From contig MOEB01000004.1 in NCBI GenBank assembly GCA_001939945.1, positions 124,001-188,000 on the forward strand: a stretch of DNA of 64,000 nucleotides, in the 5' to 3' direction. This document shows positions 10,925 through 56,705 of the stretch, one piece after another (the first letter of the stretch is position 1; every line of letters begins with the position of its first letter). A program made the position numbers and the translations under genes. The DNA is from Aerophototrophica crusticola (lineage in GTDB: Bacteria; Pseudomonadota; Alphaproteobacteria; Azospirillales; Azospirillaceae). The notes beneath the pieces are model-generated. The model did not search any database and was not told the origin of the DNA. It was given only the letters and a program-made list of their open reading frames with translations.

Positions 10925-11512
10925 ATGAACCGTCGCGTCGCCATGCTCGCGGCCCTGGCCCTGCTGTCGGTCCCGGCGCTCGCCCAGCCGGTGCCACCGG
11001 TTGCGCGGGGCGAGGCGTTGCTGCGGGCGGAGGCTGCGGCGCTGGTGGCCGACCCGGTGGTGCTGGAAGCCCTGCGCCGGGCCAACCGTGAGCGGGAGGG
11101 GCTGACGCAAGGCGCCATCCAGGCCCTGGACCAGCGCTGGCGGGAGGAGGCCAAGGGCGGCCCGGCCCCGTTCATCCGGCTGCACCTGGACAGCCCCGCC
11201 TCGGACCGGCTTCGGCAGCGGCGGGAAGCCAGCGCCGGCCGTATCGCCAACCTGTTCGTCTATGACCGGCTGGGCCTGAACGTGGCCCAGACCTGGGTGT
11301 CCCACGATTACTGGCAGGGCGACGAGGACCAGTACCGCCTGACCGTGCCCAAAGGCCCCGGCGCCCTGCAGATGGGGCCGGAGGAGCAGGACGACGTGGT
11401 CAACCGCCCGGTCATCGCCGGCAGCATGACCCTCACCGACCCCGCCGACGGCGCGGTGCTGGGGGCGGTCACGGTGGTGTTCGATCTGGCGGGGTTGCGT
11501 AGGTCGGATTAG
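10925..11512 (+). CDS. Periplasmic Cache-like protein, 3' end formed by a repeat
   Basis: A 195-residue product with a signal peptide (MNRRVAMLAALALLSVPALAQ). The mature part has the look of a periplasmic PDC/Cache-type sensor domain: a helical start (EALLRAEAAALVADPVV) and beta blocks ANLFVYDRLGLNVAQT and GSMTLTDPADGAVLGAVTVVFDL. Next to a chemoreceptor, a ligand-sensing role is plausible but unproven. The last residues RRSD and the TAG stop come from the GTAGGTCGGATTAG repeat that starts at 11499, so the original C-terminus was probably slightly different. Confidence 0.7.
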   Translation: MNRRVAMLAALALLSVPALAQPVPPVARGEALLRAEAAALVADPVVLEALRRANREREGLTQGAIQALDQRWREEAKGGPAPFIRLHLDSPASDRLRQRREASAGRIANLFVYDRLGLNVAQTWVSHDYWQGDEDQYRLTVPKGPGALQMGPEEQDDVVNRPVIAGSMTLTDPADGAVLGAVTVVFDLAGLRRSD

Positions 11513-11583
11513 GTGCGGCACGCACCGTAATCCGACGGCACCAAGCCCGGGCTGTCGGATTACGCTTCGCTAATCCGACCTAC
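11499..11583. repeat. GTAGGTCGGATTAG paired palindromic repeat, copy 1
   Basis: Two hairpins in mirror orientation: an outer GTAGGTCGGATTAG...CGTAATCCGAC unit and its inverted partner GTCGGATTACG...CTAATCCGACCTAC, separated by a variable middle. It overlaps the end of the Cache-like gene and ends three bases from the pyrE stop. Four more copies are at 12273, 17783, 23221 and 55701. The mirror pair layout is that of REP/BIME elements, which need a transposase-like protein elsewhere in the genome. Confidence 0.9.
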
Positions 11584-12272: not shown

Positions 12273-12366
12273 GTAGGTCGGATTAGCGGCTTCGCCGCGT
12301 AATCCGACAGCAATCGGTCGGGGGTCTGGTGGGGCCGTCGGATTACGCTACGCTAATCCGACCTAC
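12273..12366. repeat. GTAGGTCGGATTAG paired palindromic repeat, copy 2
   Basis: Fills nearly the whole gap between pyrC (stop 12377) and pyrE (start 12258). Same outer arms as copy 1, inner hairpin loops CGGCTTCGCCG and CGCTACG, with a different central spacer. Confidence 0.9.
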
Positions 12367-17782: not shown

Positions 17783-17868
17783 GTAGGTCGGATTAGCGCC
17801 GCATGGCGCGTAATCCGACGTGCAAACAGCGGGTGTCGGATTACGGGCTGCGCCCTAATCCGACCTAC
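17783..17868. repeat. GTAGGTCGGATTAG paired palindromic repeat, copy 3
   Basis: Fills the gap between hisZ (stop 17876) and purA (start 17757), like copy 2 between pyrC and pyrE. Confidence 0.9.
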
Positions 17869-23220: not shown

Positions 23221-23311
23221 GTAGGTCGGATTAGCGAAGCGTAATCCGACGGCAAGGCACCACCGTTTGGGATCGTCGGATTACGCGGCTGGTGTTGCTA
23301 ATCCGACCTAC
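23221..23311. repeat. GTAGGTCGGATTAG paired palindromic repeat, copy 4
   Basis: Same mirror-pair structure as the other copies. Its right end supplies the TAG stop codon of the macrodomain gene at 23308-23817. Confidence 0.9.
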
Positions 23312-51170: not shown

Positions 51171-53024
51171 ATGTCGCCCGCCAGTCCACGCCGCATTCTG
51201 TCGCTCTGGCTGCCGTGCCTCGCCACGGACCGGTTGCGACGCCGCCTGGGCACGGACCCGGGCCGGCCGCTGGTGGCCGTGGCGGCGGAGCGGGGACGGC
51301 TGACCGTGGCCGCCGCGGACCGGCTGGCCCAGGCCGCCGGGGTGGGGCCGGGCCTGCCCCTGGCCGACGCCCGGGCGCTGGAACCCGGGCTGGCGGTGGC
51401 GGATGCGGACCCGGCGGGCGATTCGGCGGCGTTGGGCCGGCTCTGCGACTGGGCCCAGCGCTATACTCCCGTGACCGCCATCGACCCGGCGGAGCAGGTG
51501 GTGCTGGGGGCCGGCGGGCTGTGGCTGGACGTGACCGGCTGCACCCACCTGTTCGGGGGGGAGGCGGGACTGCTGGAGGACCTCGCCCTGCGGCTGGAGC
51601 GGGCGGGGCTGGAGTCGCGCGTCGCCATCGCCGACACGGCCGGCGCGGCCTGGGCCCTGGCGCGGTTCGGCGGGCCGGAGCCCTGGCCCCTGATCGCCCC
51701 GCCGGGGGACCAGGGGCTGCTGCTGGCACCCCTGCCGGTGGCCGCCCTGCGCCTGCCTGCCATCACCGCGTCCGGGCTGAAGCGGGTGGGGCTGCGCCGG
51801 GTGGGGAACCTTGCCGCCGTGCCGCGGGCCGCCCTGGCCGGGCGCTACGGGCCCCTGGTGGCGCAACGGCTGGACCAGGCCTTGGGGACGGCGGAGGAGG
51901 CCCTGTCCCCCCGCCGGGCCGTGCCGCCCCATGTCACCCGCCTCGCCTTCGCCGAGCCCGTCAGCACGCCGGAGGACATGCGCCGCTGCCTGCAGCACCT
52001 GCTGTCCCAGGTTTGCAAGGGGCTGGAGGCGGCCGGGCAGGGGGCCCGCCGGCTGGTCCTGTCCGCCTGGCGGGTGGACGGCGGCATCGACACCCCGCCC
52101 CAGCTGCTGGAGGCCGGCACCAGCCGCCCCAACCGCGACCCCGCCCACCTGCTGCGCCTGTTCGAGCCCAAGCTGGACACGCTGGAGCCCGGCCCCGGCT
52201 TCGAGGTCATGGCCCTCACCGTGCCCGCGGCCGACGACTACCACCCGGAACAGGCCAGCCTGCCCCCCGCCGCCCTGAAACCCCCGGCCCCGCCGGCCAA
52301 CGTGGTGCGGTTCCCTCTCCCTGGGGAGAGGGTGGCCCGGCCACAGGCCGGGACGGGTGAGGGAGGTGGTAGCAGCAACAAATCCCCCTCTCCCCCCCGG
52401 GGAGAGGGTCGGGGTGAGGGGGTGCCGGAAGCAGGCCGACTGTCCCCCTCTCCCCAGGGAGAGGGAAAGGTGGCTGACCTCAACACCCTGCCCTGGACCG
52501 GGCCCCTGCGGCCGGCCAAGCCGGTGCGGGTGCGGCGGGTCTCCCTGGCGCCGCCGGTGCCGGAGCTGGTGGACCAGGTCGGCTCCCGCCTGGGTCTGGC
52601 CCAGGTGCGCCGGCCCCTGCCGCGGGAAAGCTGGTGGCCGGAGCGGGCGGTGGATTTGCGCCCGGCGGATGCCCCCGCCGACAAGGAGGACAGCCCCGCC
52701 GGGGAGCCCCGCCCCTGGCCTGCCGACCGGCCGCGCCCGGTCCGCCTGCTGCGCCGGCCGGAACCCATCCAGGTGACCGCCATGGTCCCCGACGCCCCAC
52801 CCGCCGGTTTCACTTGGCGCGGCACGCCCTACCGCGTCCGCGTGGCGGAGGGGCCGGAGCGGCTGTCGCCCGAATGGTGGCGCCGCCTGAACCAGCCCGA
52901 CGCCGCCCTGCGCGACTATTACCGGGTGGAAGAACAGGGCGGCCGCCGCTTCTGGCTATACCGCCTGGGCCTGTTCGACGACCCGGTGCCACCGACCTGG
53001 TACCTGCATGGCGTGTGGGGGTGA
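51171..53024 (+). CDS. imuB: ImuB, Y-family polymerase-like mutasome protein, with repeat insert
   Basis: A 617-residue protein of the DinB/UmuC fold (RRILSLWLPCLATDRLRRRLG; LGAGGLWLDVTGCTHLFGGE; helix-hairpin LKRVGLRRVGNLAAVPRAALAGRYG) with the ImuB C-terminus (TWRGTPYRVRVAEGPERLSPEWWR). Catalytic acidic residues are poorly kept, as in other ImuB proteins, which recruit DnaE2 to the beta clamp. Residues about 381-433 are encoded by a CCCTCTCC-type palindromic repeat (52312-52468) and read as Gly/Pro/Glu/Ser-rich. Normal ImuB proteins are around 500 residues. A LexA box lies upstream. imuA is not present. Confidence 0.88.
   Translation: MSPASPRRILSLWLPCLATDRLRRRLGTDPGRPLVAVAAERGRLTVAAADRLAQAAGVGPGLPLADARALEPGLAVADADPAGDSAALGRLCDWAQRYTPVTAIDPAEQVVLGAGGLWLDVTGCTHLFGGEAGLLEDLALRLERAGLESRVAIADTAGAAWALARFGGPEPWPLIAPPGDQGLLLAPLPVAALRLPAITASGLKRVGLRRVGNLAAVPRAALAGRYGPLVAQRLDQALGTAEEALSPRRAVPPHVTRLAFAEPVSTPEDMRRCLQHLLSQVCKGLEAAGQGARRLVLSAWRVDGGIDTPPQLLEAGTSRPNRDPAHLLRLFEPKLDTLEPGPGFEVMALTVPAADDYHPEQASLPPAALKPPAPPANVVRFPLPGERVARPQAGTGEGGGSSNKSPSPPRGEGRGEGVPEAGRLSPSPQGEGKVADLNTLPWTGPLRPAKPVRVRRVSLAPPVPELVDQVGSRLGLAQVRRPLPRESWWPERAVDLRPADAPADKEDSPAGEPRPWPADRPRPVRLLRRPEPIQVTAMVPDAPPAGFTWRGTPYRVRVAEGPERLSPEWWRRLNQPDAALRDYYRVEEQGGRRFWLYRLGLFDDPVPPTWYLHGVWG
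52312..52468. repeat. CCCTCTCC/GGAGAGGG inverted repeat, copy 2 (inside imuB)
   Basis: CCCTCTCCCTGGGGAGAGGG, then GACGGGTGAGGGAGG, then CCCCTCTCCCCCCCGGGGAGAGGG, GGGGTGAGGG and CCCCTCTCCCCAGGGAGAGGG. It is nested within the imuB frame without breaking it. The same words occur at 16226-16372 and 57893-58045, both intergenic. Confidence 0.85.
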
Positions 53025-53333: not shown

Positions 53334-56300
53334 ATGACCCCCTACGCCGAACTCCAGGTCACCACCAACTACAGCTTCCTCGAGGGCGCCAGCCATGCGG
53401 AGGAGCTGGTGCTGACGGCCGCTTCCATGGGCATGCGGGCCATCGGGGTGGCGGACCGCAACACCCTGGCCGGGGTGGTGCGGGCGCATGTGGCGGCGAA
53501 GACGACGGGCTTCCGGGTGGTGGTGGGGGCGCGGCTGGACCTGACGGATGGGCCGGGCCTGCTGTGCTTCCCGCGGGACCGGGCCGCCTATGGGCGGCTG
53601 TCGCGGCTGCTCAGCCTGGGCAAGCGGCGGGCGCCGAAGGGGGAATGCTTCATCGGCCGCGACGACGTGCGCGACCACGCGCAGGGCCAGGTGCTGGTCC
53701 TGCTGCCGCCCTGGGAGGCGGACGCGGGCTTCGAGGCGGACTTGGCCGATTACCGCCACCGCTTCGGTCGCGACCTGTACCTGGCCCTGACCCATCGCTA
53801 CCAGGGCAGCGACGCGCGGCGGCTGGCCTGGCTGGCGGGGTTGGCGGCCCGGCACCGGGTGCCCACGGTGGCCACCAACGACGTGCTGTACCACCACCCG
53901 GCCCGGCGTCCCCTGCAGGACGTGATGACCTGCATCCGGGACGGGGTGACCATCCAGACGGCGGGTTTCCGGCTGAACGCCAACGCGGAGCGGCACCTGA
54001 AGCATCCGCGGGAAATGGCCCGCCTGTTCGCCGCCTATCCCGACGCCCTGGCCCGCACGATGGAGATCGCGGAGGCCTGCCGCTTCAACCTGGACGAGCT
54101 TCGCCACGAATACCCGGAGGAGGTCGCCCCCGGCGGCGACCCCCAGGCGGTGCTGGAACGGCTGACCTGGGAAGGGGCGGCGGACCGTTATCCCGACGGC
54201 GTGCCGGACGACGTGGCCGCCCAGCTTCGCCATGAGCTGAACCTTATCGGGGAGATGAGGTACGCGCCCTTCTTCCTGACGGTGCATGACATCGTGCGTT
54301 TCGCCCGCAGCCAGGAGATCCTCTGCCAGGGCCGCGGCTCCGCTGCCAACTCCGCCGTCTGCTACTGCCTGGGCATCACCTCCATCGACCCGGTGCGCTC
54401 GGGCCTGCTGTTCGAGCGCTTCATCTCCGCCGCCCGGAACGAGCCGCCGGACATCGACGTGGATTTCGAGCATGAGCGGCGGGAGGAGGTGATCCAATAC
54501 ATCTATGGGAAATACGGCCGCGACCGGGCCGGCTTGGCCGCCACGGTGATCTGCTACCGCGCCCGCGGCGCGATCCGTGAAGTGGGCAAGGCCATGGGCC
54601 TGTCGCTGGACATGGTGGGCCGGCTGGCCGGCTCCGTCTGGGGTTGGGGAAAGGAGGGCATCGACGTGGAGCATGCCCGCCAAGCCGGGCTGGACCCCGA
54701 CGACCCCCTGCTGAACCGGACCATCGCGCTGGCGAAGGAGCTGGTGGGCTTCCCCCGCCACCTTTCCCAGCATGTGGGCGGGTTCCTGATCACCCGCGGA
54801 CCTTTGTCGGAGATGGTGCCCATCCTGAACGCCAGCATGGAGGGCCGCACCAACATCGAGTGGGACAAGGACGACATCGAGGCGCTGAACCTGCTGAAGG
54901 TGGACGTGCTGGCCTTGGGCATGCTGACCTGCATCCGCAAGGCCTTCGACCTGATCGACCGGCATTACGGCCGGCGCTACGACCTGGCCAGCGTGCCGGC
55001 GGAGCAGAAGCCCGTCTACGACATGCTCTGCAAGGCGGACAGCCTGGGCGTGTTCCAGGTGGAAAGCCGGGCGCAGATGACCATGCTGCCCCGCCTGCGC
55101 CCGAGGAGGTTTTATGACCTGGTGATCGAGGTCGCCATCGTCCGCCCCGGCCCCATCCAGGGCGACATGGTCCACCCCTACCTGCGCCGCCGCCAGGGGA
55201 TCGAGCCGGTAACCTACCCTTCCGCGGCGTTGGAGGCGGTGCTGGGCAAGACCCTGGGCGTGCCCCTGTTCCAGGAACAAGCCATGAAGATCGCCATCGT
55301 CGCCGCCGGCTTCAGCCCGGAGGATGCCGACCGGCTGCGCCGGGCCATGGCGACGTTCAAGAAGTATGGCGACGTCAGCAGATTCCGTGAGCAGTTCATC
55401 AACGGCATGCTGGAGCGCAACTACCCCCAGGACTTCGCTGAGCGCTGCTTCAAGCAGATCGAGGGGTTCGGCACCTACGGCTTCCCGGAAAGCCACGCCG
55501 CCAGCTTCGCCCTGCTGGTCTATGTCTCCGCCTGGGTCAAGTGCTTCCACCCGGACGTCTTCGCCTGCGCCCTGCTGAACAGCCAACCCATGGGCTTCTA
55601 CGCCCCCGCCCAGATCGTGCGCGACGCGGCGGAGCACGGGGTGGAGGTGCGGGCGGTGGACGTGAACCTGTCGGATTGGGATTCGCGGTTGGAGGATGAT
55701 GTAGGTCGGATTAGCGGCGGACGCCGCGTAATCCGACGGCAATCGGCCGCCCCCGGTGCGTCGGATTACGGCGCTGGCGCGCCTAATCCGACCTACGGCA
55801 CGCTCCCCCTCCGCCTCGGCTTCCGGCAGGTCAAGGGCCTGGCCCAAGAGGAGATGGACCGCCTCACCCTGGAACGCGCGCTGCATGGCCCCTTCCGCGA
55901 CCCGCGGGACCTGTGGCGGCGGGCGGGGCTGCCCATGGCGACGCTGGTGGACCTGGCCCGGGCGGACGCTTTCCGCTCCATGGGCCTGGACCGACGCCAG
56001 GCCCTGTGGGCGGTGGAGGCGCTGGGGGAGGCGCCCCTGCCCCTGTTCGCCAGCCTTCCCGACGGCGGCATCGGGCCGGAGCCGGTTGTGGACCTGCCCG
56101 CCATGCCGGTGGGGGAGCATGTGGTGGAGGATTACGCCACCCTGTCCCTGTCGCTGAAGACCCACCCGCTGGCCCTGCTGCGCGCCAGCATCGCGGAGGC
56201 CCACGCCCCCCGGGCCCGCCGCCACCCGCTGGTGCGGTCGGAAGAGCTGTGGACCTGGCCGGACAAGAAGCGCCTCGCCGTCGCCGGCCTCGTCCTGGTG

Positions 56301-56705
56301 CGCCAGCGGCCGGGCAGCGCCAGCGGCGTGGTGTTCATCACCGTGGAGGACGAGACGGGCGTGGCCAACCTGGTCCTCATGCCCGACCTGTTCGAGAAAT
56401 ACCGCCGCCAGGTGCTGGGCAGCCGCCTGCTGCTCTGCCTGGGCCGGGTGGAGCGGGTGGTAGCCACGGGCAAGGACGTGACCCCCGTCATCCATGTGCG
56501 GGTGGAGGAACTCCAGGACTTCACCCCCAGCCTGCGCCGCTTGGCGGAAGAACCCGAGGCCTTCCAGCCCCGGGTCATGGAAGGCGCCATGGCCAGGGCC
56601 GACGAGGTCCGCCGCCCCGGGATCGACAAGCGCAAGGACCCCAGGGAACGGGAGATGGTCGAGCGGATGGCGAGGGTATTCCCGGATGGGCGAAATTTCA
56701 GGTGA
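53334..56705 (+). CDS. dnaE2: Error-prone DNA polymerase DnaE2 with in-frame repeat insert
   Basis: A 1123-residue C-family polymerase for translesion synthesis. PHP domain at the start (YAELQVTTNYSFLEGASHAEELV; GVADRNTLAGVVRAH), catalytic Asp in PPDIDVDFEHERR near 371, the block ESHAASFALLVYVSAWVKC and a C-terminal OB fold (VVFITVEDETGVANLVLMPDLFEKYR). Residues 790-821 are encoded entirely by repeat copy 5 (55701-55796), placed between VNLSDWDSRLEDD and LPLRLGFRQVKGL, which are adjacent in relatives. The frame is kept (96 bases). It follows imuB and probably acts with it. Confidence 0.93.
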   Translation: MTPYAELQVTTNYSFLEGASHAEELVLTAASMGMRAIGVADRNTLAGVVRAHVAAKTTGFRVVVGARLDLTDGPGLLCFPRDRAAYGRLSRLLSLGKRRAPKGECFIGRDDVRDHAQGQVLVLLPPWEADAGFEADLADYRHRFGRDLYLALTHRYQGSDARRLAWLAGLAARHRVPTVATNDVLYHHPARRPLQDVMTCIRDGVTIQTAGFRLNANAERHLKHPREMARLFAAYPDALARTMEIAEACRFNLDELRHEYPEEVAPGGDPQAVLERLTWEGAADRYPDGVPDDVAAQLRHELNLIGEMRYAPFFLTVHDIVRFARSQEILCQGRGSAANSAVCYCLGITSIDPVRSGLLFERFISAARNEPPDIDVDFEHERREEVIQYIYGKYGRDRAGLAATVICYRARGAIREVGKAMGLSLDMVGRLAGSVWGWGKEGIDVEHARQAGLDPDDPLLNRTIALAKELVGFPRHLSQHVGGFLITRGPLSEMVPILNASMEGRTNIEWDKDDIEALNLLKVDVLALGMLTCIRKAFDLIDRHYGRRYDLASVPAEQKPVYDMLCKADSLGVFQVESRAQMTMLPRLRPRRFYDLVIEVAIVRPGPIQGDMVHPYLRRRQGIEPVTYPSAALEAVLGKTLGVPLFQEQAMKIAIVAAGFSPEDADRLRRAMATFKKYGDVSRFREQFINGMLERNYPQDFAERCFKQIEGFGTYGFPESHAASFALLVYVSAWVKCFHPDVFACALLNSQPMGFYAPAQIVRDAAEHGVEVRAVDVNLSDWDSRLEDDVGRISGGRRVIRRQSAAPGASDYGAGAPNPTYGTLPLRLGFRQVKGLAQEEMDRLTLERALHGPFRDPRDLWRRAGLPMATLVDLARADAFRSMGLDRRQALWAVEALGEAPLPLFASLPDGGIGPEPVVDLPAMPVGEHVVEDYATLSLSLKTHPLALLRASIAEAHAPRARRHPLVRSEELWTWPDKKRLAVAGLVLVRQRPGSASGVVFITVEDETGVANLVLMPDLFEKYRRQVLGSRLLLCLGRVERVVATGKDVTPVIHVRVEELQDFTPSLRRLAEEPEAFQPRVMEGAMARADEVRRPGIDKRKDPREREMVERMARVFPDGRNFR
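55701..55796. repeat. GTAGGTCGGATTAG paired palindromic repeat, copy 5 (inside dnaE2)
   Basis: A complete mirror pair: GTAGGTCGGATTAG at the left, CTAATCCGACCTAC at the right, 96 bases, a multiple of three, with no stop in the dnaE2 frame. It encodes VGRISGGRRV...GAPNPTY. The other copies are 85-94 bases and intergenic or at gene ends. Confidence 0.92.

Follow-up and report, generated by a model that had tools for sequence, protein, structure and literature searches.

An in-frame GTAG-tagged REP dimer in dnaE2 of Aerophototrophica crusticola lies in a loop that appears to take up unrelated palindromic repeats across Alphaproteobacteria

We analysed a 64,000-nucleotide stretch of the Aerophototrophica crusticola genome (hereafter the window; contig MOEB01000004.1, positions 124,001 to 188,000), in which dnaE2, the gene for an error-prone DNA polymerase, contains a complete 96-base palindromic repeat within its reading frame. 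The repeat is a head-to-head dimer of GTAG-tagged repetitive extragenic palindromes (REPs). Comparison of relatives indicates that the DnaE2 loop in which it lies is a recurrent landing site for unrelated palindromic repeats in Alphaproteobacteria. We think it likely that the dimer was gained in frame in this permissive loop, that it is roughly neutral, and that a purifying filter determines where such copies persist. As far as open papers show, the repeated use of one DnaE2 loop by several unrelated repeat types is new, REPs inside DnaE2 genes as such being known.

The two hairpins of the dimer, at positions 55705–55737 and 55760–55792, face each other, and the 96 bases start with GTAG and end with CTAC, as the tag of the GTAG-tagged REP super-family demands. 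Codon 790 of the open reading frame (ORF) 53334–56705 begins at base 55701, and the repeat is free of stop codons in that frame, no other phase of the dnaE2 coding strand being open across it. Computational removal of the 96 bases leaves an ordinary short hairpin (LEDDGTLPL), with the frame still open. The 32-residue insert is presumably translated. An earlier sequence-only reading had described a full palindromic repeat in frame in dnaE2, adding residues 790–821, and its sequence and coordinates proved exact.

The host ORF is identified as dnaE2 by a score above a curated family cut-off (NCBIfam NF004225, "error-prone DNA polymerase", 1398.5 bits against 939), by a C-family polymerase fold and by an adjoining Y-family polymerase-like gene. 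Pfam finds DNA polymerase III alpha domains in the product, with HHH_6 spanning residues 769–890, and the AlphaFold2 model, built from 28 sequences with a mean predicted local distance difference test score (pLDDT) of 79.9, resembles polymerase III alpha structures. Residues 790–820 form one continuous stretch with pLDDT below 50, between the short strands 785–786 and 826–827, and alignment places the insert at the turn before the helix-hairpin-helix of Escherichia coli alpha. The insert is thus probably a disordered tip of a β-hairpin, a tolerated loop compatible with an intact fold. The gene shows no sign of decay as judged from its sequence: the frame is open, the ratio of nonsynonymous to synonymous substitution rates (dN/dS) is about 0.25–0.43 and below 1 on both sides of the insert, and the end branch is not long (0.22 in A. 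crusticola, genome G000, against 0.21 in G065 and 0.22 in G001).

The dimer belongs to a high-copy, dispersed and mostly extragenic family. The window contains 10 copies of the hairpin unit GTCGGATTA-N4..26-TAATCCGAC, and 100 shuffles of it contain 0; the whole genome contains 156, and the reversed pattern finds 0 there. GTAG-tagged units number 148 (79 + 69; control 0). We sampled 35 REP sites, 30 among the matches listed genome-wide and 5 in the window. The dnaE2 copy is the sole one judged by eye to lie within a conserved gene, the other 34 lying outside; spanning frames at these sites were dismissed as spurious, or placed 5' of a start codon, by eye and not by a domain search. Two-unit dimers are present at 23 of the 35 sites, and in 20 of these 23 the outer ends are GTAG and CTAC, the head-to-head arrangement. 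The sequence-only reading had placed the four other copies of the window outside gene interiors, and indeed none (11499, 12273, 17783, 23221) lies in a conserved gene; the copy at 17783 alone is spanned by frames with at least 20 codons on each side, and there the purA start comes after the repeat. The length is a multiple of three in 5 of the 23 sampled dimers and a frame is open in 7, with 4 dimers combining the two properties; most of them would therefore disrupt a gene on landing in it. The mover may be a transposase of the REP-associated tyrosine transposase (RAYT) type; a search for a Y1-type transposase with PF01797 alone gave no match in A. crusticola, and a single one of the genus's 11 genomes has a match.

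The insertion appears to be a lineage-specific gain. The nearest DnaE2 found, from the congener G001 (72–75% identical), has a 15-residue loop without the repeat, and the GTAG-tagged unit occurs in only one other of the 82 genomes of the order (G064, 8 units, 5 + 3) and in 0 of 10 congeners. The proposal of the sequence-only reading that a REP-like dimer was acquired in frame in this lineage therefore holds, since G001 lacks the insert and 80 of the 82 genomes lack the tagged unit.

We next consider the same loop in relatives. A profile of the segment around the loop matched 74 of the 82 genomes of the order at 90 places, of which 88 were read (fragments in G053 and G005 were left out) and 86 yielded a parsed loop. 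The loop is shorter than 14 residues in 50 copies, 14–39 residues in 17 and at least 40 residues in 19. All 19 long loops, among the 88 copies read, carry palindromic inserts, which are strong inverted repeats scoring 16–35; when the bases of each were shuffled 40 times, the best score was 9–13. Loops of 25–32 residues in other lineages are longer yet not palindromic. Among 80 named loci, taken as best matches and not picked by loop, 6 have loops of at least 40 residues, of which 2 were already counted and one (L033) is weaker (score 12). Searches at class and phylum level matched 177 of 385 and 171 of 398 genomes; from these, 28 new loci (plus 2 already read) among the matches listed and 30 places picked mostly by length serve as examples, not rates. 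They add loop palindromes in G287 and G202 (scores 22 and 21) and in G106 and G376 (score 12 each). L245 has a weak palindromic insert (score 12) and L249 none; the L255 loop was unparsed and L267 unmatched, and the remaining long loops are non-palindromic or weakly palindromic. The pairs L031/G049, L034/G043 and L033/G444 are apparently the same records, with identical loops, and each is counted once as a lineage. The matches of L031 with G049 and of L034 with G043, together with that of L032 with G051, suggest Azospirillaceae as the family. The sequence-only reading had held that same-length inserts of unrelated sequence in relatives would speak against an insertion. Unrelated inserts do occur at this site in many relatives, with lengths that vary (loops of 45–75 residues); since most of them are strong palindromes themselves, they point to a hotspot instead.

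Specifically, the loop inserts across Alphaproteobacteria are of the types GTAG, CGTC, CCCTCTCCC and CCTCATCC. The A. crusticola loop holds the GTAG dimer and that of G065 a CGTC-type repeat, and loops of the Azospirillum group hold several CCCTCTCCC/GAGGGTGAGGG double hairpins in differing reading frames. These types are multi-copy where counted. A single CCCTCTCCC hairpin pattern, applied to 18 genomes, occurs in 150–351 copies in 12 Azospirillum-group genomes (11 with a long insert and G036 without; control 0 or 1), 131 times in G065, 112 in A. crusticola and 0 in G001. It occurs 54 times in L058, 27 in L060 and once in L053, where the pattern does not fit the exact inserts; for L053, L058, L060 and G039 the count concerns the type only, and six carriers (G020, G033, G041, G043, G050, G052) were left out. 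The CGTC type is found 31 times in G065 (control 3) and 34 in A. crusticola (control 1); in G001 it is found 3 times, as often as its control. The insert types of G287 and G444 occur 18 and 19 times (control 0 for both).

A quick tree of 102 chosen rows gives at least 18 changes in the palindromic state of the loop, or 21 counting types; this tree has weak forks, the changes include losses, and short remnants were scored as lacking the palindrome. One supported clade unites three states: none in G001, CGTC in G065 and GTAG in A. crusticola. In Azospirillum-group clades, full inserts adjoin short loops and single-hairpin remnants, and variants of CCCTCTCCC could have been exchanged by gene conversion with other copies. 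In the same phylum and another class, the L265 loop, with LSPWERAGVRA, resembles a worn CCCTCTCCC repeat by eye, with an inverted-repeat score of only 9; it may hint at a hotspot beyond Alphaproteobacteria.

The inserts are concentrated at this one site. Loops could be parsed in 166 of 168 DnaE2 ORFs (the unparsed L178 and L208 are short-looped by eye), and these 166 ORFs (476 kb) contain 29 inverted repeats scoring at least 16, 24 within the loop and 5 elsewhere. The 80 named ORFs, scanned for at least 660 residues upstream of the loop and the sole set covered near full length, have 5 repeats in the loop and 4 elsewhere (p 1.5e-8 under an even spread); the order set has 19 and 1. Counted as events, 8 in the loop stand against 5 elsewhere (p 1.7e-13), a figure that depends on our grouping by type and clade and on incomplete upstream coverage, the 5 versus 4 of the named set being fairer. 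The threshold of 16 was picked after the data were seen; at 14 there are 4 extra hits elsewhere, in conserved sequence, and L033 (12) lies below it. As a control, the homologous stretch of the replicative DnaE has an extra codon in 0 of 81 matched genomes of the order, one genome being one codon short (Fisher p 1.7e-6 for DnaE2 versus DnaE inserts, relatedness ignored). The palindromic inserts of L046 and L082 are nearly co-located, about 656–660 residues before the loop at consensus position 124–128, possibly a second landing site in DnaE2.

Together, we propose that a GTAG-REP dimer, of a family that now counts about 150 units, entered dnaE2 in the A. crusticola lineage. It would have landed at the β-hairpin tip ahead of the helix-hairpin-helix part, in the only open phase and with its 96 bases preserving the frame, and would be read through into 32 residues that are predicted to form a disordered loop, with the fold unharmed. 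Unrelated palindromic repeats would have entered the same loop in other Alphaproteobacteria. By such a purifying filter, repeats would insert widely and most genic copies would be lost; those at an exposed turn of a conditionally used polymerase may survive, decay to single hairpins or be replaced.

Several points weigh against this account. A strain-level empty site was not found, the closest comparison being G001 at the 72–75% identity given above, and the mover of the roughly 150 units may be lost, divergent, on missing sequence or overlooked. The multi-copy counts leave out the exact inserts of L053, L058, L060, G043, G202, G106 and G376. The scan extended only about 571 residues upstream of the loop in 85 of the order's 86 ORFs, so sites beyond went unseen, and palindromes do occur at other DnaE2 sites in L046, L082 and L096 (two), with a weak one in L204 (score 16) that resembles native sequence and is still counted as elsewhere. 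The C-terminal linker of DnaE2 (consensus position 1047) shows length differences in 35 of the 103 rows aligned, 4 of the 35 being replicative DnaE, and the DnaE2 ORF scan found 0 repeats scoring at least 14 in it; tolerance alone may therefore not explain the choice of site. This linker favours the alternative that the insertion machinery is drawn to the dnaE2 stretch, by target-site preference or by single-stranded DNA exposed in SOS expression, and that this drawing and not protein tolerance makes the hotspot; translated repeats in the adjoining imuB-like gene favour it too. We nevertheless regard such targeting as unlikely, because the repeat types at the site differ (all four listed above), as do codons and flanks by lineage, which makes a single common target improbable, and because the same loop has also expanded without palindromes, as tolerance would have it.

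Only marginally less unlikely is that the inserts are kept for a benefit, by acting on the polymerase itself or on its partners, for instance through lesion bypass or contacts with the imuB product. One site has been hit in at least 8 lineages by our grouping, inserts are common to several species in Azospirillum-group clades, and the replicative DnaE is clearly different; against this, the peptides of different insert types have no common sequence by eye, the A. crusticola insert is predicted to be disordered, and close relatives have short or shortened loops (VEGSSS beside a 51-residue loop), as do the 50 of 86 parsed copies below 14 residues. That dnaE2 is failing in the A. crusticola lineage and tolerates the insert as a protein that no longer works seems very improbable. 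The gene is dispensable outside SOS stress, and nonsynonymous divergence (dN) from G001 rises from 0.141 before the insert to 0.239 after it; a like rise after the site is seen against G065 and may merely reflect the domain, and the full-length open frame, strong family score and a branch no longer than those of its neighbours argue otherwise. An ancestral protein segment that is palindromic by chance would suit the long loops at the same place in many relatives, and is scarcely credible: membership in a dispersed repeat of 156 units strongly contradicts it, the repeats that make up the long loops of relatives are other ones and, where tested, multi-copy, and the three nearest rows are in three states. 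It is also an outside chance that the hairpin tip is a cassette site where selfish palindromes are put in, swapped and cut down, the disordered loop tuning the SOS mutasome; repeat turnover would then supply variation in induced mutation rate.

Ever since intragenic repeats were found in Rickettsia, it has been debated whether they are neutral debris or serve as raw material for proteins. The Rickettsia palindromic elements (RPEs) were reportedly described by Ogata in 2000 and 2002. In DnaE2, unrelated repeats converge on one enzyme loop, which is empty, filled or shortened among close relatives and for which a paralogous enzyme provides the control, so that tolerance, targeting and benefit can be tested directly against each other, and the loop offers a natural test of harmless versus useful insertions. 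RPEs are likewise in-frame, translated palindromic repeats in conserved genes, as described in PMC10969869, and belong to another repeat family: RPE-4 and RPE-6 are of the CGTC type according to PMC3733652, whereas the window element is GTAG-tagged. The latter paper, by Di Nocera, De Gregorio and Rocco (2013), reports that REPs of both the GTAG and the CGTC type occur inside genes for DNA synthesis and repair, including the error-prone polymerases of DnaE2 genes. These GTAG-tagged hairpins, often head-to-head dimers, resemble our element; repair-gene REPs there lie at differing sites, recB excepted, whereas in the present data a single DnaE2 loop is repeatedly entered by unrelated types. Its text further states that REPtrons may be missing and a RAYT transposase is not obligatory for GTAG-tagged REPs, and speculates on a hypermutability effect of REP-tagged DnaE2. 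The sequence-only reading knew no case of a REP-like family in an SOS polymerase; DnaE2 REPs being already published there, we do not regard the case as a new kind. An earlier statement of one shared DnaE2 insertion site was not found in the open-licence literature, PMC3733652 coming closest, and its Additional file 3 may list positions. Bacterial interspersed mosaic elements (BIMEs) of enterobacteria and pseudomonads are similar in being paired inverted REPs with a spacer, in many copies and mostly intergenic; in contrast, the dnaE2 copy is coding and inside a gene.

Table 1 Positions of dnaE2, its REP dimer and other features of the window
Feature	Positions	Strand	Remarks
Complete head-to-head GTAG-REP dimer, BIME-like, in frame	55701..55796	+	encodes DnaE2 residues 790–821
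Left REP: GTAG tag and stem-loop GTCGGATTA...TAATCCGAC	55701..55737	+	
Dimer spacer	55738..55759	+	
Right REP, inverted, CTAC at its + strand end	55760..55796	-	
dnaE2, error-prone DNA polymerase, 1123 residues, host of insert	53334..56705	+	family score, fold
Y-family polymerase-like gene upstream of dnaE2	51171..53024	+	Pfam IMS and DUF6504
Three CCCTCTCCC-type hairpin units, different repeat family, in frame in imuB-like gene	52313..52465	+	
Other dimer of GTAG-REP family	11499..11583	+	spanning open frame absent
Other dimer of GTAG-REP family	12273..12366	+	spanning open frame absent
Other dimer of GTAG-REP family	17783..17868	+	upstream of minus-strand purA start (purA by eye)
Other dimer of GTAG-REP family	23221..23311	+	spanning open frame absent

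The Y-family polymerase-like gene upstream of dnaE2 is presumably imuB, a name given from its place. Its repeat units at 52313–52465 read as SPSPPRGEGRGEG...SPSPQGEG, and the imuB-like homologue of L053 carries, in a comparable position, a translated repeat that resembles the CGTC type.
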